Shown in pieces: positions 1,429 to 21,073 of a stretch of 21,832 nt of DNA. The notes beneath the pieces were generated by a model that was given only the letters and a program-made list of their open reading frames with translations, had not been told where the DNA came from and did not search any database. The position numbers and the translations under genes are program-made. The stretch spans positions 1 through 21,832 of IMG/VR virus record IMGVR_UViG_3300048918_000297; one strand, written 5' to 3'. Within the stretch, counting starts at the first letter, position 1, and each line of letters starts with the position of its first letter. Origin of the DNA: a virus.

Positions 1429-1509
1429 CGGCTAGCAGGAGCCTAACTCCACGTGCTAGGCTAGCCGCACTAGGCAACGCGGGGGGACGTCCCTCGTTAC
1501 AGAGAAAGG
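1429..1509 (+). promoter_or_regulatory. Repeated promoter/leader cassette, copy A
   Basis: Core GCTAGGCTAG (1455-1464) contains the actinobacterial -10-like TAGGCT (1457-1462). Then come AGGCAAC, a hairpin (AACG 1476-1479 with CGTT 1495-1498; GGGG 1481-1484 with CCCT 1491-1494) and GAGAAAGG (1502-1509), 7 bases before the GTG at 1517. An upstream CGGCTAGC (1429-1436) is the inverted complement of GCTAGCCG (1460-1467). No TTGACA-like -35 is seen. The same layout recurs at 2888, 8439 and 12890, and in shortened form at 18894. Confidence 0.7.
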
Positions 1510-1516
1510 TGTCATA

Positions 1517-2431: not shown

Positions 2432-2919
2432 CCGACCTGAAGTACGGTCTTCCTGCCCACTTGATCGGCACCCCTGATGAGAACGGTTGCGAGATCTGGC
2501 TCGGCTACATCAGTCACGGGGGGTATGGAGCCTATGGGAAGCATGTGAAGCCCGCGCACAGACTCGTATTCACGTTTGTCTACGGTGAGATTCCGGCTGG
2601 CATCCAACTTGATCACATATGTCACGTCAAAGCCTGCGTGGCTCCAGAGCATCTCCAGATGGTAACTCCTAAGCAGAACATGGAGAACCGAAAGGGACCG
2701 CAACGGAACAGTACGTCGGGTATCCGTGGCGTCCACTGGAACACACGTGAAAAGAAGTGGCGCGTTCAGGTGAAACACAACGGGAAGATCTATTGGGGAG
2801 GTCGGTTCACCGATCTTACTGAAGCCGAGAAGGCTGCGATCGCCTTACGAAATCGGCTCTTCACAAACAACCTGGGGGATCGCGAGAGGCTAGCCGCGAT
2901 GGCCCACCTGCTAGGCTAG
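2428..2919 (+). CDS. HNH endonuclease with AP2-like DNA-binding domain
   Basis: The central HNH nuclease module (about residues 40-90) shows LDHICH (D62, H63), C65, C70, the APEHL histidine (H75) and a QNMENR asparagine segment, as in free-standing phage homing-type HNH enzymes. The C-terminal part (about 94-145) reads SGIRGVHWNTREKKW... GGRFTDLTEAEKAA, an AP2/ERF-like DNA-binding domain commonly found behind HNH. Base composition is visibly less GC-rich than neighbours and codon use differs (AAT, ATA, TTT, TTA), consistent with recent acquisition. GTG at 2428 is in a GTGA overlap. Its TAG stop (2917-2919) lies inside promoter-like cassette B. Confidence 0.92.
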   Translation: MTDLKYGLPAHLIGTPDENGCEIWLGYISHGGYGAYGKHVKPAHRLVFTFVYGEIPAGIQLDHICHVKACVAPEHLQMVTPKQNMENRKGPQRNSTSGIRGVHWNTREKKWRVQVKHNGKIYWGGRFTDLTEAEKAAIALRNRLFTNNLGDRERLAAMAHLLG

Positions 2920-2967
2920 CCGGTACAGGCAACGCGCCGGGGATCAGCCTCGGCGGTGAGAGAAAGG
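2888..2967 (+). promoter_or_regulatory. Repeated promoter/leader cassette, copy B
   Basis: GCTAGGCTAGCC (2910-2921) carries TAGGCT (2912-2917). AGGCAAC follows, then a clean hairpin CGCCGGGG (2935-2942) / CCTCGGCG (2948-2955) with a 5-base loop and one G-U pair, then GAGAAAGG (2960-2967) 6 bases before the GTG at 2974. An upstream palindrome GGCTAGCC (2888-2895), still inside the HNH coding region, repeats the core motif. The layout matches copies A, C and D. Confidence 0.75.
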
Positions 2968-2973
2968 CACGAA

Positions 2974-3574: not shown

Positions 3575-4755
3575 GTACCGATCAGGCTCAGGCCGTCTAC
3601 GCGGCCGAGGACCTCTGGTCCGCCAAGGAGCCACAGGCCCGAATCCGCTTCGCGGACTGGCGCAACGTCCAGCCGTTCTACGTCAAGCTCGCAGCACGGT
3701 TCCGTGAGGCCGACGTCTACGTCTTACCACCCACCGTACGACCGCGGAAGGGTGCGCTCCAGGCGCACTACGACACGGGGCTCAAGTCGGTGTTCATGCC
3801 GCCGTACGACAGCGGTGGAGTCTGGGCGCTGAACACGGGCACCGCGATCCACGAGTTCGCACACCACCTGTCGCCGGGCGCGGGGCACGGACCGGCCTTC
3901 CGACAGGCGATGATCGACTGCCTGGAGATGCTCGGGTGGGACGCCGAACTGCTGGCCGATTGCTACGAGCAGGCGGGCCTCGCCATGAGCGACAAGGCCG
4001 AGGGAATCACCGACAAGGTGAGCAAGTTGATCGAGCACGCGGACGGGCAGGGTCGTACCCCGGAGGAGAAGAAGACCTTCCTCGAGAAGGCGGAGCGGCT
4101 GGCCGCCGAACACTCACTCAACCTCGCGCTCCTGCGGAAGAAGCAGGCGGACGCAGCAGGTCACCGTATCGAGGAGCGACCCATCACCGGAGAGTTGTTC
4201 CCGCTGACATCCCTGCCGAACGTGACGTACCGCAACCTCGCCGTGGAGTTGGGTAGCGCGATCGCACGGGCGCACGGCGCGCAGTGTACGATCCGAGGGA
4301 AGTCAACGTTCATGACGTTCTACGGCTTCTCCGAGGACGTCAACCTCACGGAGCTCATGCTCGCCCGTATCACGCCCATGATGTTCGAGGAGAGCGACGA
4401 CTACCTCAAGTCACCAGAGCACAAGCACTCCGGGGCAGCGGCGACCAGCGCACGGATCACGTTCTGCAAGAACTTCGCGTGGGAGGTAGGCCGCAGGCTG
4501 ACCGAGGCCGTGAAGCAGACCGAGCGAGCGGTGCAGGAGACACTGGCGATCACCGACGGCACCGTCAGCACGGAACTCGTGATGCGCGAGAAGGCCCTCG
4601 AGGTTGCGGACTACGTCGCCTACGAGTTCAAGCGTCAAGGCGTGAAGGGATCCTGGAAGGGGAGCAACTCCTCAGCCTGGAGCGGAAACGCAGCCGATGC
4701 GGGCAGGGTGTCCGCGAAGAACGTCAACCTGTTCGGACGAAAGGAACTGTCATGA
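3571..4755 (+). CDS. Zincin-type metallopeptidase-like protein with DUF2786-like region
   Basis: This 394-residue protein starts at GTG 3571 in a GTGA overlap. Residues 94-106 read HEFAHHLSPGAGH, a gluzincin-like HExxH (H94, E95, H98) with a plausible third ligand at H106, followed by GPAFRQAM as in SprT/Wss1-like domains. Residues about 150-190 (VSKLIEHADGQGRT... LEKAERLAAEHSLN) look like the helical DUF2786 domain, and the C-terminal half resembles the region that usually follows it in phage proteins. DUF2786 proteins have no established activity. SprT-like enzymes cleave DNA-bound proteins, so a role in clearing protein from phage DNA is possible but inferred. Confidence 0.75.
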   Translation: MSTDQAQAVYAAEDLWSAKEPQARIRFADWRNVQPFYVKLAARFREADVYVLPPTVRPRKGALQAHYDTGLKSVFMPPYDSGGVWALNTGTAIHEFAHHLSPGAGHGPAFRQAMIDCLEMLGWDAELLADCYEQAGLAMSDKAEGITDKVSKLIEHADGQGRTPEEKKTFLEKAERLAAEHSLNLALLRKKQADAAGHRIEERPITGELFPLTSLPNVTYRNLAVELGSAIARAHGAQCTIRGKSTFMTFYGFSEDVNLTELMLARITPMMFEESDDYLKSPEHKHSGAAATSARITFCKNFAWEVGRRLTEAVKQTERAVQETLAITDGTVSTELVMREKALEVADYVAYEFKRQGVKGSWKGSNSSAWSGNAADAGRVSAKNVNLFGRKELS

Positions 4756-4973
4756 CCACCGAGCATCTCAGTGACCAGCAGATCGCACGAGTGGAGGCGC
4801 TCCACGCGGCGCGGGAGATCGGCCGCAAGAGCGCCGGTCCCTTCGGGGCACAGACCCCTCCCGACACCACGGACCTCGTGGACCTCGCCGAGTACATCCT
4901 CAACGGGACACACCCGATGGACCGGTACAACACCGAGGAGGTGAAGACCAATGGAGACCAGGACGATGCCTGA
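4752..4973 (+). CDS. Hypothetical protein (73 aa)
   Basis: ATG at 4752 overlaps the preceding TGA and has AAGGA at about 4740-4744. The product is hydrophilic: a helical N-terminus (LSDQQIARVEALHAAREIG), a Pro/Thr-rich middle, then LVDLAEYILNGTHPMDRY and an acidic tail. No motif is recognised. The LVDLAEYILNG segment resembles short helices seen in many small phage proteins of unknown role. The next gene starts inside it at 4951. Confidence 0.7.
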   Translation: MTTEHLSDQQIARVEALHAAREIGRKSAGPFGAQTPPDTTDLVDLAEYILNGTHPMDRYNTEEVKTNGDQDDA

Positions 4974-8255: not shown

Positions 8256-8472
8256 CAGGGAACTCGCACTTCTTCTGGACAATGGCGCACTCGTTCGAGA
8301 CTCGGGGTGGCGATGCGTCGCCGACGTACATGGCTCCTTCCACGGATTCGTTGAACGGGGAGGTCGGACGTACGGCGTGATCGTGGACGCGGAGACACTC
8401 GTGCAAGTTTATCCGCCGATGCAAGTAGGAGGCACGCGGGCTAGCCGGAAGACTAGCAACGCGCTAGGTTAG
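8245..8472 (+). CDS. Hypothetical protein ending in cassette C (75 aa)
   Basis: GTG at 8245 has GAGAGAGGGAAG immediately upstream and overlaps the helicase by 11 bases. The beta-rich core WRCVADVHGSFHGFVERGGRTYGVIVDAETLVQVYP looks like a compact small domain of unknown family. The last approximately 15 residues (GGTRASRKTSNALG) are encoded by the CTAG-rich upstream part of promoter-like cassette C, and the stop TAG at 8470-8472 is in its core. The natural end may once have been earlier. Confidence 0.65.
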   Translation: MGDDRELALLLDNGALVRDSGWRCVADVHGSFHGFVERGGRTYGVIVDAETLVQVYPPMQVGGTRASRKTSNALG

Positions 8473-8518
8473 CCGGTAGGCAACGCGCCGGGGAAGTCCC
8501 TCGGCGGTTAGAGAAAGG
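8439..8518 (+). promoter_or_regulatory. Repeated promoter/leader cassette, copy C
   Basis: Upstream GGCTAGCC (8439-8446) and ACTAGC (8452-8457). The core GCTAGGTTAGCC has TAGGTT (8465-8470) as -10-like, then AGGCAAC. The hairpin is CGCCGGGG (8486-8493) / CCTCGGCG (8499-8506) with loop AAGTC, and GAGAAAGG (8511-8518) stands 7 bases before GTG 8526. Stem bases are identical to copy B while the loop differs. Confidence 0.75.
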
Positions 8519-8525
8519 TTCAGAT

Positions 8526-12889: not shown

Positions 12890-12972
12890 CCCTAGGCACG
12901 GATAACACCACCCGCTAGGCTAGGCAGTAGGCAACGCGCCGGGGGAGATCTCCTGGTGGAACCCGAGAAAGG
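12890..12972 (+). promoter_or_regulatory. Repeated promoter/leader cassette, copy D
   Basis: Upstream CCCTAGG (12890-12896), core GCTAGGCTAGG with TAGGCT (12916-12921), then AGGCAAC. The hairpin is CGCCGGGGG (12937-12945) / CTCCTGGTG (12950-12958) with a 4-base loop and three G-U pairs, and GAGAAAGG (12965-12972) lies 9 bases before ATG 12982. Compared with B and C the 3' arm differs at several bases yet still pairs, which argues for selection on RNA structure. Confidence 0.75.
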
Positions 12973-12981
12973 CGAAGCCAG

Positions 12982-14123: not shown

Positions 14124-15299
14124 GTGAGCGGGGACGAACACGCACACGCGATCCTCGGCCCGAGCGCCAGCGGGCGATGGCTCCAGTGTCCGGCGTCGGT
14201 ACGGATGACCCGTAATCTTCCCGAATCGCCGGACAGCGTGTACGCCCGCGAGGGCACGGACTTCCACACGCTATGCGAGATCGAGGCGTCACGGCGCATC
14301 CTGGGCAAGGAGCCGGGTGACTACGCCCTGGATCGTCTGGAGTGGGCGCTCGGGACAGAGGACGAGTGGCGCGACGACCAACTCAAGTACGTGGAGCAGT
14401 GGATCACGTTGCTGGATGAGTACCTCGCCGAGGAAGAGGGCGCGCAACTCTTCCTGGAGGTCGTCGTGCAGACCGGCGTTCCGGGGTGCTGGGGGACCGC
14501 GGACGCGATCATCCTGTACAGCGATCGCATCCGTGTGATCGACATCAAGTACGGCGCGGGCATCAAGGTCTCGGCGATCGGGAACAGTCAGGCTCGCCTC
14601 TACGGGGTGGGCGCGCTCGAGACGCTGGTCGAGGACCCCCTGACCATCGAGACGGTGACGAACACCATCTGGCAGCCCCGGATGAAGAACCTCTCGGAGG
14701 AGACCCTCACGCGGGCCGAACTGGTGAAGTGGCGGAACGACATCATCCCCGTCGCAGAACTCGCGCTGGGCGAGGACGCACCGTTCGGCCCCAGCGAGAC
14801 CGCCTGCCGGTTCTGCTCCATCGCCGGTGAGTGCGGCCCGCGTGCGAAGTTCATGCTGGCGCAGGACTTCGGTGATCCAGACCTCATGGACGGCGAGGAG
14901 ATGGCCGACGCGTTTAGACGCACGTCCGCGCTGAAGAAGTGGATCACCGATATTGAGGACGCCGCGCTCAAGCGGGCCTACGAGGAGGCAGGCAGCGTCC
15001 CGGGATTCAAGGTCGTGCTGAGCGGTGGGCGTCGCCAGATCAAGGACGAGAAGAAGGCCATTGGCGTTCTCATCGATGCAGGATACGGGGTGGACGAGGT
15101 ATCCAGCATGAAGATCGCCACCCTCGGCCAGTTGGACAAACTGGTCGGGGCCGATGAACTCCAGCAGGTCCTGGGTGACTTGCTGGGCAAGAGTGAGGGA
15201 CGCCTGTCCCTTGCCAAGGATAGCGATCCTCGGCCAGACGCCGACGCTATCCACTCCGCGGAGATGGACTTCGCGGGGATCGAGAATGGAGAAGCCTGA
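14124..15299 (+). CDS. DUF2800-type PD-(D/E)xK exonuclease with Cys cluster (Cas4/RecB-like)
   Basis: GTG at 14124 gives 391 residues. The Cas4/AddB-like nuclease core shows REGTDFHTLCE (His motif), GTADAI (D127) and VIDIKYG (D140, K142), the RecB-type motif order. Four Cys frame the fold: C22 in RWLQCPAS, then C228-x2-C231-x5-C237 in ETACRFCSIAGEC, as in Fe-S-cluster nucleases. DUF2800 proteins are encoded next to DUF2815 and a family A polymerase in many siphophages, as here. It probably resects DNA 5' to 3' for recombination-dependent replication. TGATG overlap with the DUF2815 gene. Confidence 0.92.
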   Translation: MSGDEHAHAILGPSASGRWLQCPASVRMTRNLPESPDSVYAREGTDFHTLCEIEASRRILGKEPGDYALDRLEWALGTEDEWRDDQLKYVEQWITLLDEYLAEEEGAQLFLEVVVQTGVPGCWGTADAIILYSDRIRVIDIKYGAGIKVSAIGNSQARLYGVGALETLVEDPLTIETVTNTIWQPRMKNLSEETLTRAELVKWRNDIIPVAELALGEDAPFGPSETACRFCSIAGECGPRAKFMLAQDFGDPDLMDGEEMADAFRRTSALKKWITDIEDAALKRAYEEAGSVPGFKVVLSGGRRQIKDEKKAIGVLIDAGYGVDEVSSMKIATLGQLDKLVGADELQQVLGDLLGKSEGRLSLAKDSDPRPDADAIHSAEMDFAGIENGEA

Positions 15300-15820
15300 T
15301 GGCGAAGGTAGTGACGAAGAAGCCGGTACGTCTGACGTTCTGCTTCCTGCCGGACGACGACGGGGTGTACCGCACCAGCGTCCTGGTCCCGAAGAAGGAC
15401 ACGGCGCTGATCGCCCAGATCGAGGAGGCGATCGAGGAGGCCAAGGAGTACGGCAAGACGGCGAAGTGGGGTGGCAAGATCCCGCGCAACCTGAAGATCT
15501 CGTTCCAGGACGGCGACGACACCGACCTGGAGAAGTACCCGGAGAACGAGGGACACATGCTCCTCAACACCCGGTCCAAGAAGAAGGTGGGTCTGGTCGA
15601 CACTGACCGTCAGCCCATCCTCGACGCCAGCGAGATCTACTCGGGGTGCTGGGCGTACATCAGCGCAACGTCGTTCGCCTACGACAACGAGAGCAAGGGT
15701 GTCTCGTTCTTCCTGAACAACATCATGAAGGCCCGGGACGACGAGTCCTTCGGCGGTGGCGCATCCAGCCCCGACGAGGACTTCGCCGATGTCGAGGTCG
15801 ATGACGAAGACCTGATCTGA
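15299..15820 (+). CDS. DUF2815-type single-stranded DNA-binding protein
   Basis: ATG at 15299 shares its A with the exonuclease stop. The 173 residues match DUF2815: a FLPDDDGVYRTSVLVPKKDTALIAQIEEA N-terminal part, the KYPENEGHMLLNTRSKKK segment, and a central GCWAYISATSFAYDNESKGVSFFLNNIM region. The sequence ends with a strongly acidic tail (EDFADVEVDDEDLI), which in SSBs recruits partner proteins. DUF2815 proteins are OB-fold ssDNA-binding proteins of the T7 gp2.5 type. Here it should coat single strands for the exonuclease and polymerase. Confidence 0.9.
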   Translation: MAKVVTKKPVRLTFCFLPDDDGVYRTSVLVPKKDTALIAQIEEAIEEAKEYGKTAKWGGKIPRNLKISFQDGDDTDLEKYPENEGHMLLNTRSKKKVGLVDTDRQPILDASEIYSGCWAYISATSFAYDNESKGVSFFLNNIMKARDDESFGGGASSPDEDFADVEVDDEDLI

Positions 15821-15844
15821 CGCTGGTCAGGCGTACCATAGACC

Positions 15845-15936
15845 GCAGCCGGGGCGGGGTCGTTCCGTCGAGTGGGGAGTTGCCCCCCACCGACAGCCCC
15901 GTCACAGGGTGAGCCTTTCTCCCCCGCCCCGGCTGC
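15845..15936 (+). other. Large folded intergenic element between SSB and DNA polymerase genes
   Basis: A perfect 15-bp stem (15845-15859 with 15922-15936; GCAGCC-GGGG-C-GGGG and its complement) encloses about 62 bases that contain a second hairpin: GTCG (15867-15870) and GTGGGG (15872-15877) with CCCCAC (15885-15890) and CGAC (15891-15894), one bulged A. A TACCAT at 15834-15839 could be a -10, placing a start at the stem base. There is no T-run, only TCTTCC follows. It may be a GC-type terminator, a leader that controls the polymerase gene, or a small RNA. I cannot tell which. It is not protein coding. Confidence 0.6.
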
Positions 15937-15958
15937 TCTTCCGTTAGACAGGAGAGCA

Positions 15959-17992
15959 GTGGACCCGGTAGCGGTCAACCGAGTGAAGTTCTCGGACGCG
16001 GCGAAGTCCATCATCCGGACTGCCGCCCTCGCTGCTCTGGGTGAGCCCCTGAGAGTCAAGTACACCGACGGCGATGCCGATCTAGCGTTCGACCTGCGTG
16101 ACCAGAACGCCGCCGTACGTACTCTCGGTCCGAAGCAGTTCTTTGACACGGTGTGGATCCCTACCCCGGACGGCGGGGGCTTCCGCAAGGGCATCGGCTA
16201 CCCGAACGCTCAGTATTACGTCCAATTCGCGTTGAAGCAGGCGCTCGGGCTAGACCTCCATATGTTCGACGACGACGTGCTCATCATTGACACCGAGACA
16301 CACGGATCTGAGCACCGCTGGAACATGCACCCCCGCGATTTCTTCCGGCTGGGACAGTACGCCTGGGGCGAGGGGCCGGTCACGCTGACCCAGAACTACG
16401 ACGAGATAGTCGACGCCCTGCGGTCTGCCCGGCTGATCATCGGCCACCAGATCCACTCGTACGACCTGTCCTACCTCATGGGTGACGACGCTCTCCACCT
16501 GCCTGTCTTCGACACCTTTGTCCACGCAACGTGTGTCGCGCCCGCGCCCGACCGCTTTCTCAACGCGAAGGGTGTGACCCAACTCTCCAACTCGCCAGGG
16601 TCGGCGTTGGCCTTCCACTCCCTCGAGAACTCCTGCTTCACGTTCGGCATCGAAGGGAAGCACGGCAACCTGAAGGAGATGGCAAGGCGGCACAAGTGTG
16701 AGATCGGTGAGATCCCCATCGACGAGGAGTATGAGGAGTATGCGCGGCAGGACGTGGTGGCGAATCGGGAGTTGGCGAGAGCCATGTTCAGCGTTGCCGA
16801 ACCTACCGACTACGAATGGCGGGAGCAAGAGGTAGCGGCGATCAACGCCCAGATCAGCCGCAACGGGTTCCGCGTGGACCGTGCGGTGGCCGAGGCACGG
16901 GTGGCAGAACTCCAGCGCCGGAAGGACGCGCTGCTCGTTGACCTGGTGATGGACTACGGCTTCCCAACGCAGGGGAAGCAGCCGTGGCGGAGCAACGCGG
17001 GGAAGGCGGCGATCCTGGAGATCCTGGGGCCGGACGCCAAGAAACTCCCCAAGACGAAGAAGGGCGCACCGTCCCTGTCCGGGGATGCGATCAAGGGTGT
17101 GACCGAGGGCACCACGAACGAGGCGTTGGGTGAGGCGCTGGGCGAACTGCTAGGTCAACGGTCACTGGCACGACTCGCTCTCGATAACGTCCATGACGAC
17201 GGATACGTCCACCCGGACATCACATCGCTCCAGCGGTCACGGCGGTTCTCGGTGTCCAACCCCGGCCTGTCGGTCTGGACGGCACGCGGACCCGGAGCGG
17301 TAGAGAAGGCGTACTTCGTGGCAGACGATGAAGACCATGACCTGTACGAGATGGACTTCTCCGCAGCCGACGCCCGCGTGGTCGCGGCGTACAGTGGAGA
17401 TCGGCACTACCTGAGCGACATGACCAACCCGAAGTTCGACGCTCACATCCAAACAGCGCGATGGTGCTTCGGGGCAACGTTCGACACGGACCCGAAGAAG
17501 TACCGTCAGATCGCGAAGGACTGCACCCACGCCATCCCGTACGGAGCCGGAGGCAAGCGGGTGAGCATGACGGCAGGTATCCCGTTGTCTGACGGCTACG
17601 ACGTGATCAAGAAGTTCGGCAAGACCTACCCATCGGTCGCCAAGTGGATGGAGAAGGCTCGGGAGGAGGGGAAGTCCGGTATTCTGGTCAACGCCTGGGG
17701 CGGCGTGCTCTACCTCGAGCCGGGACGTGAGTACACACAGTCGCCCGCGCTGTACGGACAGAACGGCACCCGCGAACTCCTCGTCGACGGGATGATCCGG
17801 TGCCGGGACGCGGGGCTGCTCCAGTATCTCAAGATAACCGTTCACGACGCCGTGGTGTTCTCGTTCCCCAAGGACAACGGAGAGGCGATGAAGGCTGAGG
17901 CCGAGGCGTGCTTCACCACGAAGTTCCGAGGAGTTCCATTCCCACTAGCGAGCGGAAAGCCCGCTCCCGACTGGTATCAGGCAGGACATTAG
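15959..17992 (+). CDS. Family A DNA polymerase with 3'-5' exonuclease domain
   Basis: GTG at 15959 after AGGAG (15950-15954) gives 677 residues. An earlier in-frame GTG at 15872 lies inside the folded element and is rejected. 3'-5' exonuclease motifs: Exo I IDTETHG (about 110), Exo II IIGHQIHSYDL, Exo III YARQDV (about 260-265). Polymerase motifs: A YEMDFSAADAR (about 463-473), B KYRQIAKDCTHAIPYG (about 516-530), C TVHDAVVFS with D630. The usual HDE is HDA here (A631). The 5' nuclease domain of host PolI is absent, as in T7-type phage enzymes. It works with the SSB and primase-helicase. Confidence 0.95.
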   Translation: MDPVAVNRVKFSDAAKSIIRTAALAALGEPLRVKYTDGDADLAFDLRDQNAAVRTLGPKQFFDTVWIPTPDGGGFRKGIGYPNAQYYVQFALKQALGLDLHMFDDDVLIIDTETHGSEHRWNMHPRDFFRLGQYAWGEGPVTLTQNYDEIVDALRSARLIIGHQIHSYDLSYLMGDDALHLPVFDTFVHATCVAPAPDRFLNAKGVTQLSNSPGSALAFHSLENSCFTFGIEGKHGNLKEMARRHKCEIGEIPIDEEYEEYARQDVVANRELARAMFSVAEPTDYEWREQEVAAINAQISRNGFRVDRAVAEARVAELQRRKDALLVDLVMDYGFPTQGKQPWRSNAGKAAILEILGPDAKKLPKTKKGAPSLSGDAIKGVTEGTTNEALGEALGELLGQRSLARLALDNVHDDGYVHPDITSLQRSRRFSVSNPGLSVWTARGPGAVEKAYFVADDEDHDLYEMDFSAADARVVAAYSGDRHYLSDMTNPKFDAHIQTARWCFGATFDTDPKKYRQIAKDCTHAIPYGAGGKRVSMTAGIPLSDGYDVIKKFGKTYPSVAKWMEKAREEGKSGILVNAWGGVLYLEPGREYTQSPALYGQNGTRELLVDGMIRCRDAGLLQYLKITVHDAVVFSFPKDNGEAMKAEAEACFTTKFRGVPFPLASGKPAPDWYQAGH

Positions 17993-17994
17993 AG

Positions 17995-18861
17995 ATGAAC
18001 GAAGAGATGATGAGTCTGTACCGGGTCATGGTGGTAGAGAGGCACAAGATCTGGCTCGCCCGCCAGGAGAACCAGCCTCAGCCGTGGACCGCGGACCCGG
18101 TGTTGATGAATCGCAAGTTCACGAATATGTTCCGCGTCCTTGACCCCGGCTCGCAGTTCGTCTTCGACCTTGACGACAACGATCCGGTGACTGTGATTAC
18201 CCGGCTGGTCTTCTACCGGATCACGAACAAGCCGTCGACGTGGTACGCATTGAGGTCGTCGCTCGGACGTTACCCGATAGTGAACGATTTCATCCAGAAC
18301 CCGGAGCGGATCACCGCCTTCCTGGACCTGTACCGAAACTTGGGAAACCGGATCTTCAGTGGAGCGTACATCATTGTCCCAGAGCCGGGGACGGCGAACG
18401 ACAAGATGGAGGGCGCGGTGCGCGTGACCCAGCGATTCATCCGTGAACGGGCCGAGGACTTCTTGGGATCGACCACCCAGGATGAGCGGTTCGCCGTGCT
18501 GCGGTCCACCCCCGGCCTCGGCCCGTTCCTGTCGATGCAGATCCTCACCGACTGGAACTACCTCGAGGAAGAGGAGCCGGACCTATCGTTCATCAAGGCT
18601 GGCCCCGGTGCGATCCGCGGTGCTGCCCTGCTCGACTCGTCCAAGAAACCGGAGGACGTGATCTACGATCTCGCCTTCGACTGGATGGACCATCCAACCG
18701 TCAACCTGAGAGGCCGCTCCCTCACGCTGATGGATGTCCAGAACACTCTCTGCGAGTTCGGCAAGTACGTGAAGGAGACCAAGAACCCGCGGAAGAAGAC
18801 CACGTATCGGCCTTCGCACCCCGGCGTCCAGCCGGTTCCCATCGTCCCGGCGTGGTGGTAG
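17995..18861 (+). CDS. Thymine hypermodification protein: aGPT-Pplase / 5-hmdU DNA kinase helical domain-like
   Basis: ATG at 17995 (AGGA at 17983) gives 288 residues. It matches the helical domain found in alpha-glutamyl/putrescinyl-thymine pyrophosphorylases and next to 5-hmdU DNA kinases: N-terminal VVERHKIWLAR, then PWTADPVLMNRKFTNMFRVLD (W31, D34, F42, R47, D50), and a helix-hairpin-helix STPGLGPFLSMQILTD (G174-G176) as in HhH DNA glycosylases, ending with LTLMDVQNTLCEFGKY. Known relatives activate 5-hydroxymethyluracil in DNA for hypermodification, pyrophosphorylase-type. No kinase domain is fused here. It is adjacent to polymerase and ThyA genes, so it acts on thymine-type bases. Confidence 0.8.
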   Translation: MNEEMMSLYRVMVVERHKIWLARQENQPQPWTADPVLMNRKFTNMFRVLDPGSQFVFDLDDNDPVTVITRLVFYRITNKPSTWYALRSSLGRYPIVNDFIQNPERITAFLDLYRNLGNRIFSGAYIIVPEPGTANDKMEGAVRVTQRFIRERAEDFLGSTTQDERFAVLRSTPGLGPFLSMQILTDWNYLEEEEPDLSFIKAGPGAIRGAALLDSSKKPEDVIYDLAFDWMDHPTVNLRGRSLTLMDVQNTLCEFGKYVKETKNPRKKTTYRPSHPGVQPVPIVPAWW

Positions 18862-18893
18862 ATTCCACGACGGCACTGGACCTGCCCCGCCTG

Positions 18894-18935
18894 CTAGGCT
18901 AGGGGTACAGGCAACAACTAGAGAATAGAGAAAGG
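18894..18935 (+). promoter_or_regulatory. Repeated promoter/leader cassette, shortened copy E
   Basis: GCTAGGCTAGG with TAGGCT (18895-18900), then ACAGGCAACAACTAGAGAAT and GAGAAAGG (18928-18935), 6 bases before ATG 18942. The core, AGGCAAC and ribosome site match copies A-D, but the GC hairpin between them is missing (the leader is about 15 bases shorter) and no CTAG copy lies 21-24 bases upstream. It could be a deletion derivative or a differently regulated version. Confidence 0.65.
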
Positions 18936-18941
18936 CAGAAC

Positions 18942-19490
18942 ATGAGTCTGGCAAAGATCAACCGGATTGGCAAGGTCCGGAAGGCGACCACGTGCGAGAA
19001 GTGCGGGGACCCGATCGGCGTGGGCAGCCCTGCCGTCAAGTTCGCAGTGGGCTTCCGCGCTCGTACGAGGGTCCGCTGCACCAAGTCCGAGTGCTTCCCG
19101 AAGCCCAGCGAGCGCGAGTCGTCGCTGGTGTCCAGCGTGTATGCCGCGCAGGAGGAGGCCGACGCCTCCACCGCCGACAGCCTGGAGGATCTCGAGCAGA
19201 TCCGCGACGACATCGCCAACGCCACCCGCGAGGTCGCGCAGGAGTACGAGGACAGTGAGATGTTCGAGAGGAACTACGACCTCCAGGAGCGGGCGGAGAC
19301 GCTGAACGGTGCAGCCGACGAACTGGAGAATTGGCAGCCGGAGGGGGAGGACGAGCCGGACGAGGACGACAAGGGGACTTGGTCGTACAACGGCCATGAC
19401 TTCGACACCTACGAGGATGCTCACAACGAGTGGCTCCTGCACGCCCGCCAGTCTCTTCAGGCCGCGATCGACGAGATGGAGCTCCCGTGA
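18942..19490 (+). CDS. Zinc-finger protein with acidic coiled-coil tail (182 aa)
   Basis: ATG at 18942 is set by GAGAAAGG at 18928-18935. Residues 18-51 hold a Cys4 site: TCEKCGDPIGVGSPAVKF, a basic FRARTRVRC and CFPKPSERESS. This resembles PARP-type zinc fingers seen in actinophage proteins with the C-x2-C-G-D/P-I-x-x-G pattern. Residues about 65-135 form an acidic, coiled-coil-like helix (LEDLEQIRDDIANATREVAQEYED), and the C-terminus (YNGHDFDTYEDAHNEWLL) is aromatic. It probably binds nucleic acid or a partner of the downstream ThyA-like enzyme, with which it overlaps by GTGA. Confidence 0.75.
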   Translation: MSLAKINRIGKVRKATTCEKCGDPIGVGSPAVKFAVGFRARTRVRCTKSECFPKPSERESSLVSSVYAAQEEADASTADSLEDLEQIRDDIANATREVAQEYEDSEMFERNYDLQERAETLNGAADELENWQPEGEDEPDEDDKGTWSYNGHDFDTYEDAHNEWLLHARQSLQAAIDEMELP

Positions 19491-21073
19491 GTGAGCAATA
19501 CACGTTCCCCACGGCGAGCGAGGCGCTCCCGTTCATCTGCTCGCGGATTCTGGACATAGGGGACGAGGTGGGCAGCAGGAACGGGCGGGTGAAGGAACTG
19601 CTGAACACCAAGATCGTCCTGACTGACCCGCAGCACCGCGAGGTCCTCAGCATCAACCGCAAGGCCAACGTCTTTGCCCAGATCGCTGAGACGATGTGGG
19701 TGCTGGCCGGGCGCAACGACATCGAGTGGCTGAGCCCCTACCTGCCGCGAGCCAAGGAGTACAGCGACGACGGAAAGACGTGGAGGGGTGGCTACGGCCC
19801 GCGCCTCCGCTACTGGACCCTGTTCAACGGGGAAAGGCTAGATCAACTCGATCACGTCGTAAAGACGCTTCAGGCGGACCCACTGTCCCGGCGTGCGGTG
19901 ATCGCGATCTACGACCCGGCGCGTGACACGGAGCCGGGTAAGGACATCCCCTGCAACGACTTCCTCCAGTTCCAGAGCCGCCTCGGTGCCCTGCACATGA
20001 CCGTGACCGTGCGGTCGAACGACGTGATGTGGGGCTGGTCGGGGATCAACGCCTTCGAGTGGAGTACCGTCCAGGAGATTGTGGCGCACCTGCTCGGTAT
20101 CGCCGTGGGCACGCTCACGTTCAACATCGGGAGCCTGCATCTCTACGAGCCGCATTGGGACAAGGCCGGTCGCCTGGAGCACGAGGACAACACGTACGCG
20201 ATCAGCCCGTTCCAGATGCCCGACCGATTCACCCGGTCTATGGTGTGGGTGGACCTCCTCATCGACCAGTGGTTCCATTGGGAGGGGTTGTGTCGAGAGG
20301 GCAAGGCCACGATGGAGGCCCTGGACAAGATCGAGGAGCCGCTGTTCCAGTCCTGGGCCGTGGCGATTGCGTACTTCTGGCAGCGCGATGAGTTCTGGCT
20401 CAAGGCGCTCAACGGCACGGCGCTGGCAGCGGCCATAGCCAGGACCCCCGCCACGACGCTCTCAGAGGCCCCTCAGACGTCGCACGACACCGGGGCGGGG
20501 GTAACCCACAACCTAGCCGCGCACGACCGTACAGGAGCGTTCTACGCCTTCGTCACGGACCTGCACGCCAAGAAGCACGCGTCGTACGGTGACTCATGGA
20601 TGAAGCGGGGTGAGAAGATGTCCATACTGGCGAACATGGCTCGCAAGGTGGACCGGCTGGGAGTCGGTGATGAGTACGACAGTTCGGCGGACACCCTGAT
20701 CGACCTGCTGGTCTACGCGAGCAAGTACCACTGCTGGCTCCTCGGCTGCGAGGCGAACCCGGAGAACGTGAATCAGGGGCTGGCCGTGGCTCTGGCAGAA
20801 GAAGAGGAGACGGTGGGGCAGGCGGCGGACATCGCCATCGTCGACATCGTGGATGACTTCAACCTCTACTGCGACAGCATCGACACGTACAGCACAGACC
20901 AGAAGTTGGACTTCGTCAGCGAGCTGATCCTCCGGGTGACACCCATCGCCCGCGATGTTTGGTACGCGGAGACCCACGGCCAGCCGTTGGACGAGGATGA
21001 CGGCGACCACCGCGATCGCCGGCTGGCCGAAGAGATCGAGCAGGACGACTACAAGGGAGCCGATGCAGATTGA
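19487..21073 (+). CDS. ThyA-like dUMP (hydroxy)methylase fused to Nmad1/DUF1599-like domain
   Basis: GTG at 19487 (GTGA overlap) gives 528 residues. Residues about 1-310 are ThyA-type: ETMWVLAGRNDIEWL, WRGGYGPRLR, SRRAVIAIYDP, catalytic PCN (C156), VTVRSNDVMWGWSG, then N188, the position of the uracil-specific Asn, and LHLYEPHW. It is thus dUMP- rather than dCMP-type. Residues about 349-421 (TGAFYAFVTDLHAKKH, YGDSWMKRGE, ARKVDRLG, LIDLLVYASKYH) match nucleotide modification associated domain 1 (DUF1599; MazG-like all-alpha). The rest is acidic helix. It is inferred to make 5-hydroxymethyl-dUMP (or dTMP) while the fused domain cleaves a competing nucleotide. Confidence 0.88.
   Translation: MSEQYTFPTASEALPFICSRILDIGDEVGSRNGRVKELLNTKIVLTDPQHREVLSINRKANVFAQIAETMWVLAGRNDIEWLSPYLPRAKEYSDDGKTWRGGYGPRLRYWTLFNGERLDQLDHVVKTLQADPLSRRAVIAIYDPARDTEPGKDIPCNDFLQFQSRLGALHMTVTVRSNDVMWGWSGINAFEWSTVQEIVAHLLGIAVGTLTFNIGSLHLYEPHWDKAGRLEHEDNTYAISPFQMPDRFTRSMVWVDLLIDQWFHWEGLCREGKATMEALDKIEEPLFQSWAVAIAYFWQRDEFWLKALNGTALAAAIARTPATTLSEAPQTSHDTGAGVTHNLAAHDRTGAFYAFVTDLHAKKHASYGDSWMKRGEKMSILANMARKVDRLGVGDEYDSSADTLIDLLVYASKYHCWLLGCEANPENVNQGLAVALAEEEETVGQAADIAIVDIVDDFNLYCDSIDTYSTDQKLDFVSELILRVTPIARDVWYAETHGQPLDEDDGDHRDRRLAEEIEQDDYKGADAD

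Follow-up and report, generated by a model that had tools for sequence, protein, structure and literature searches.

A conserved structured element in the SSB-Pol gap of a phage, a candidate gene for a trans-acting antisense RNA against early leaders

The DNA analyzed here (the window; 21,832 nucleotides of the virus record IMGVR_UViG_3300048918_000297) encompasses a replication operon in which the gene for a single-stranded DNA-binding protein (SSB; stop codon at 15820) is separated from the DNA polymerase gene (Pol; GTG start at 15959) by a 138-base gap. The gap contains a perfect 15-bp inverted repeat, with arms at 15845-15859 and 15922-15936 and 62 nt between them. Of all inverted repeats in the window with 14 bp or more within 200 nt, it alone is 100% complementary. 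The locus consists of the following features:

15299-15820, plus strand: gene for a Gp2.5-like/DUF2815 ssDNA-binding protein
15834-15839, plus strand: -10-like box, TACCAT, assigned to the proposed gene for a small RNA; TANNNT in the same place in all 4 family sequences
15845-15936, plus strand: core of the proposed antisense RNA, in which the 15-bp P1 stem (15845-15859/15922-15936) closes a P2 + P3 junction; delineated by folding, relatives, and covariance search
15867-15894, plus strand: P2 hairpin, with a stem that varies among relatives and a constant loop
15878-15884, plus strand: invariant loop AGUUGCC, complement of the leader motif GGCAAC; identical in 4 sequences
15913-15921, plus strand: invariant GCCUUUCUC, 9-nt complement of the leader site GAGAAAGGY; single early-strand copy, duplex energies
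15935-15958, plus strand: alternative hairpin over the Pol ribosome-binding site, present in some form in all four sequences
15937-15948, plus strand: U-rich tail, a possible RNA 3' end judged from sequence alone; no score in the terminator scan
15959-17992, plus strand: DNA polymerase I family gene, GTG start

The interior of the element is predicted to form a junction that includes P2 with its seven-base loop, the small P3, and a mini-hairpin, GAG-CCUUU-CUC, located 5' of the 3' arm. On the plus strand, the fold of 15810-15965 has a z-score of -4.6 against dinucleotide shuffles, and that of 15842-15948 a z-score of -4.9, with none of 200 dinucleotide shuffles as good. Thus, the perfect stem, the 62-base interior, and the inner hairpin noticed in a preliminary description of this DNA are confirmed both by the inverted-repeat scan and by folding. 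The minus strand of the element folds even better than the plus strand, so folding alone does not assign a strand.

Close relatives of SSB and/or Pol, with 84-92% protein identity, were detected on four viral contigs, and the element is retained on all four. Two of these, L004 and L005, resemble each other throughout the stretch compared, and the four-sequence comparisons accordingly include the window and three distinct relatives. An equally long gap devoid of pairing was specifically looked for among the relatives, and all family members found keep the pairing. Across the family, P1 and P2 each show one G-U pair and a single compensatory change, from G-C to A-U; P3 is absent from L004. The P2 stem varies, but the motifs AGUUGCC, UCGUUC, and AGCCUUUCUCC are identical throughout the family. 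All 4 family sequences contain a TANNNT box (TACCAT, TACCCT, TAGCAT, TACACT) at an equal distance upstream of the stem; the consensus scan of the window element detected no sigma-70-type promoter and no consensus -35/-10 pair. The structure is real and conserved, and conservation and covariation support the earlier proposal of a structured RNA with its own -10 box and a predicted start at the foot of the stem. A covariance model of the element, run against 212 kb, recovered its 4 training genomes and, beyond the training places, only weak opposite-strand matches at those same places. An alignment-based Pol search for distant relatives returned just the same four contigs, and no named phage showed direct DNA similarity to the element.

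The location in the replication operon and the large inverted repeat could also suggest a replication-origin structure or a landing site for replication proteins, as the preliminary description had offered among its options. This explanation appears extremely improbable: the GC skew does not switch at the element, no iterons were noticed there, and the covariation is of the RNA type, with a conserved loop and a promoter box. Nor was any support found for an RNA that binds replication proteins.

In 3 of the 4 family sequences, the element lies directly before Pol, and the alternative hairpin, in which TGCTCT/AGAGCA pairing (-11.1 kcal/mol) joins the end of the 3' arm to the Pol ribosome-binding site, carries one T-A to C-G change in L004. 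The long stem and this hairpin are mutually exclusive over a few bases and could form a cis-acting leader or attenuator that switches Pol translation or read-through. The polymerase-gene leader proposed at the outset is strengthened by the hairpin but weakened by L006, where a 37-codon, Cys/His-containing ORF (4663-4776) is inserted between the element and Pol, so that the element is not bound to Pol or always directly upstream of the same gene. A cis-acting role also leaves unexplained the match to distant cassettes described below, and we consider it unlikely.

The window contains five repeated promoter/leader cassettes, each at the head of an early operon, with the order GCTAGG[C/T]TAG, GGCAAC, usually a hairpin, the ribosome-binding site GAGAAAGG[C/T], and the start codon:

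1455-1510, plus strand: target cassette 1, with the GCTAGGCTAG promoter box, GGCAAC (1473), and GAGAAAGGT (1502)
2910-2968, plus strand: target cassette 2, with the promoter box, GGCAAC (2928), and GAGAAAGGC (2960)
8463-8519, plus strand: target cassette 3, with the promoter box, GGCAAC (8479), and GAGAAAGGT (8511)
12914-12973, plus strand: target cassette 4, with the promoter box, GGCAAC (12930), and GAGAAAGGC (12965); the closest cassette upstream of the element
18893-18936, plus strand: target cassette 5, with the promoter box, GGCAAC (18910), and GAGAAAGGC (18928)

The palindromic GCTAGGCTAG box at the cassette promoters (1455, 2910, 8463, 12914, 18893), often preceded by CTAGCC, is perhaps a site for a phage regulator. 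About two dozen cassette copies are present across six related contigs and have in common GGCAAC and [G/C]AGAAAGGY; GGCAGC replaces GGCAAC in two copies, and C replaces the first G at two sites. The variant GGCAGCC is found in one cassette each in G001 contig 983 (minus-strand count, loci L180-L182) and L190 9696.

The cassettes had been listed in the preliminary description without a connection to the element; we found that the cassette leaders have two invariant motifs of their own, to which the two invariant exposed motifs of the element are complementary. GGCAAC has its complement within the AGUUGCC loop, and GCCUUUCUC is complementary to GAGAAAGGC; with GAGAAAGGU, the match to GCCUUUCUC includes a G-U pair. 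Of 200000 shuffled versions of the element, 4 contain both complement words, and GCCUUUCUC / GCCTTTCTC has one early-strand copy each in the window, G001, and G004, inside the element. In predicted ensembles, the AGUUGCC loop is largely unpaired in the window and G004 and partly so in G001. The element is thus complementary to mRNAs encoded elsewhere, at bases that are predicted to be accessible. In the window family, the motifs are invariant on both sides, so that the pairing there amounts to complementarity, with no covariation.

The CCUUUCU of the element also resembles the 3' end of 16S rRNA, the anti-Shine-Dalgarno of which is CCUCCUUUCU, and CCUUUCU is common to both. Unlike the 16S tail, the element matches GAGAAAGGY including bases that 16S leaves unpaired. 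A pyrimidine follows AAGG at 21 of 21 cassette sites versus 108 of 237 other sites in the same genomes, counts that are given without a p-value as the related cassette copies are not independent; this pyrimidine pairs with the G of GCCUUUCUC and does not improve pairing with 16S. The seed duplex with the five cassette sites has a predicted energy of -14.4 to -18.2 kcal/mol. The 16S tail reaches a weaker -8.0 to -10.3 kcal/mol, and the seed has a median of -8.7 kcal/mol with all leaders bearing a Shine-Dalgarno sequence (SD); some non-cassette leaders of the window match or surpass the cassettes, the best one at -22.9. The whole-genome leader test yielded 11.5% in the window, with 0 of 200 shuffles as good, and results not above shuffles in G001 and G004 (45/200 and 59/200), where five or six cassettes are probably diluted among some 160 called leaders.

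The complement of the element carries GAGAAAGGC and GGCAAC, as the leaders do, and an RNA from the other strand could therefore serve as a decoy that titrates a leader-binding protein or ribosomes. Such a decoy would benefit from the better folding of the minus strand and would likewise track each phage's own leader sequence. Against it, the TANNNT box and the U-rich tails are on the plus strand, and no TANNNT was seen, by eye, at the start of the minus-strand form. The decoy is, in our assessment, very unlikely; the TANNNT boxes together with the T-runs of the plus strand favor short plus-strand RNAs.

We then read the SSB-Pol gaps of Glutamicibacter phage Montesquieu, Brevibacterium phage LuckyBarnes, and uncultured actinophage-like contigs from an SSB scan. 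Six phages (Montesquieu, LuckyBarnes, L217, L218, L219, and L220; the GGAACC group) have in this gap a TANNNT box and a hairpin with GGUUCC in its apical part. The bases flanking GGUUCC pair with the GGAACC ribosome-binding sites of the same phage and rarely with those of another (flanks AC, GA, AG, AG, GA, and GT). The loops, the leaders, and the frequency of the phage's own flank after GGAACC at ribosome-binding sites, with target sets outside annotated genomes built on simple ORF calls, are as follows:

Montesquieu: loop GUGGUUCCU, leaders AAGGAACCAC; AC at 10 of 13 sites
LuckyBarnes: loop AAAUUCGGUUCC, leaders AAAGGAACCGAA; GA at 11 of 14 sites
L217 and L218: loop CUGGUUCC, leaders GGAACCAG; AG at 3 of 7 (L217) and 4 of 7 (L218) sites
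L219: loop CUCGGUUCC, leaders GGAACCGAG; GA at 2 of 2 sites
L220: loop ACGGUUCCU, leaders AGGAACCGT; GT at 4 of 6 sites

Loops with other flanks score zero at these sites, except for GA at 2 of the 6 L220 sites. With non-ribosomal GGAACC sites as the reference, Montesquieu, LuckyBarnes, and L220 each show a significant flank preference, whereas L217, L218, and L219, with their small counts, do not. When the elements were permuted against the leader sets of seven phages, including L231 with its weaker match, 2 of 5040 arrangements were as good, a descriptive rather than a prospective test, like the others here, given that the GGAACC phages and motifs were found by seeking such matches and none was held out. 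At the sequence level, loop and ribosome-binding site covary across these lineages, that is, seed-target covariation is detectable in the GGAACC group. This group shows no resemblance to 16S, and it may have arisen separately from the window family.

The anti-leader word has one early-strand copy in L219 and L220 and, at nine bases, also in LuckyBarnes; the other copies of GTGGTTCCT in Montesquieu are complements of plus-strand leaders, and there are further copies in L217 (one) and L218 (two). By duplex energy alone, a phage's own loop does not always rank first within the group, and the anti-leader bases of Montesquieu are mostly paired in the predicted fold, which makes for poor accessibility. 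Pairing of the anti-leader motif covers the SD in the window, and in LuckyBarnes and Montesquieu the anti-leader word extends from the SD towards the start codon. In 10 of the 11 anti-leader elements, a TANNNT box precedes the stem by 8-15 nt, the exception being L231, where another hairpin intervenes; of the gap hairpins that lack an anti-leader loop, those of L226 and L227 have no such box and that of L229 has one. As for a cis-acting Pol leader, GGAACC does occur in Pol's own leader in LuckyBarnes and L218 and partly in L219 and L220, but the Pol leaders of the window, Montesquieu, and L217 lack the motif matched by the loop.

Two leader observations lie outside these comparisons. In L219, the leader GGAACCGAGAAAGGAGG (~1796-1824) and the loop match over a stretch of 11 bases; part of this leader site lies upstream of the SD, which sets it apart from the other sites. 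Montesquieu (L211) has a repeated leader cassette of its own, GTAGGGTAGACTGTATTTTGTTGGGCAGGGAGCTCGACCTACCGAAAGGAACCAC, on the minus strand (e.g., 42365, 34458, 31390, 26973, and 25923), which differs from that of the window.

The gap hairpins of LuckyBarnes and Montesquieu end in clear T-runs, on the same strand as TANNNT, and in many non-actinobacterial relatives the gap is occupied by plain terminators. An ordinary intergenic terminator, factor-independent or Rho-assisted, with a loop sequence of no consequence, would share with the element the GC-rich stem and the U-rich tail. Such a terminator differs from the element in having no large, 62-nt structured interior, no invariant exposed motifs on a changing stem, and no -10 box just upstream, and it does not predict that the loop flanks change together with the ribosome-binding sites of each phage. 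In the window, the consensus scan found no classical terminator (a short-loop GC hairpin followed by a T-run), in agreement with the original observation that a normal T-run is lacking, and the tail is only moderately U-rich (UCUUCCGUUA in the window, CUUUCCUUUU in one relative). A mere terminator is hence quite unlikely, and of the strong GC terminator first proposed, what may survive is a secondary role of the closing stem.

Several candidates were set aside. The two anti-leader words, used as a pattern, occur in at least 120 stretches of viral contigs and, among the matches listed, the closing stem is present in the family only; the AGCCTTTCTCCYCCGCC pattern matches in L024, L025, and L029 look unrelated on inspection. 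The cassette pattern in bacterial genomes gave 10 scattered matches in unrelated phyla, taken as chance, and no Pol relative was found with the cassette-like matches L049, L053, and L059. The distant Pol relatives LeeroyJenkins, WaterT, and prophiGD24-3 have no sizeable gap before Pol in the annotation. Corynebacterium phage SamW has a gap hairpin without a leader match (by inspection), the gap hairpins of L226, L227, and L229 show no convincing one, and L226 was not counted, as its leaders have GGAACCA and its gap hairpin has UGGUUC in a paired arm only. Firmicute and proteobacterial loci showed terminators or no gap, with no convincing match. A blind 8-mer screen was too noisy for use by itself.

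We conclude that 15834-15948 is likely the gene of a free-standing, trans-acting antisense RNA that would repress translation of the early leaders. An RNA of about 100 nt would be transcribed from its own -10 box, starting near 15843-15846, and closed by the long GC stem, which may help to end it. AGUUGCC would be displayed in a loop and GCCUUUCUC in the mini-hairpin; in the five cassettes, AGUUGCC would pair with GGCAAC at the leader's 5' end and GCCUUUCUC with GAGAAAGGY in the ribosome-binding site. Ribosomes could not start on paired leaders, and early protein synthesis would fall. With its gene inside the replication operon, the RNA would become more abundant as the operon is expressed and the genome is copied, and early translation would be shut off after a delay. 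From 5' to 3', the two motifs come in the same order in the element and in the leader RNAs, so that one continuous duplex is impossible and simultaneous pairing requires a pseudoknot-like complex; in the window family, they might be used in turn or in a kissing complex. We infer transcription, the RNA ends, pairing in trans, and the timing, as well as repression rather than activation, the latter because the pairing sits at the ribosome-binding region.

The nearest known system, as far as the likeness can be drawn from its description and from the Rfam scan, seems to be the c4 RNA of P1/P7, which blocks the ant ribosome-binding site with bases that are likely in loops (PMC12197685). Both would be phage-encoded structured antisense RNAs with complementary bases probably in loops, directed at the ribosome-binding site of a phage mRNA (PMC12197685). 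In contrast to c4, which acts on the ant mRNA and controls immunity, the element would address some five to ten leaders per genome with a common target word. This 2025 review of phage sRNAs (PMC12197685) does not contain the terms 'actino', 'mycobacteriophage', and 'early genes'. The Rfam scan of the element found no family at the gathering score and none relevant at E<=5, the 6C RNA model included. In SD-targeting sRNAs of Gram-positive bacteria (6C RNA of Actinobacteria; RsaE/FsrA type), hairpin loops pair with several ribosome-binding sites, C-rich loops being directed against G-rich sites of host genes. The element resembles them in this use of loops, but its proposed targets are phage leaders, and it has no Rfam match. 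Searches of open-access literature turned up no report of such an RNA, an absence that is weak evidence because subscription journals are largely missing there.

Its Pol, its SSB, and its gene order put the window phage among the actinophages. More tentatively, the SSB-Pol gap of actinophages might harbor an RNA class conserved in position, with a private loop/leader code in each phage, one RNA silencing the whole early regulon and acting only on close kin, for example, a co-infecting relative. With LuckyBarnes reported to be lytic (PMC6588365) and Montesquieu to be virulent (PMC9331655), prophage immunity is no obvious role. One RNA matched to the whole set of early operons would, if real, represent a phage-wide RNA switch found in several actinophage lineages at the same place with differing sequence pairs. 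To our knowledge, the phage antisense RNAs described so far act on one or two messages. Actinobacterial hosts are not known to have Hfq. The predictions are specific and can be tested in the cultured phages LuckyBarnes and Montesquieu, and a rare anti-leader word in an SSB-Pol gap hairpin provides a search rule for further cases.

Downstream of Pol, the window encodes an aGPT-Pplase-like protein (17986-18861) and, as indicated by synteny with Montesquieu, a thymidylate synthase/pyrimidine hydroxymethylase-like protein (19490-21073); given these two genes, the window phage probably carries a modified thymine.
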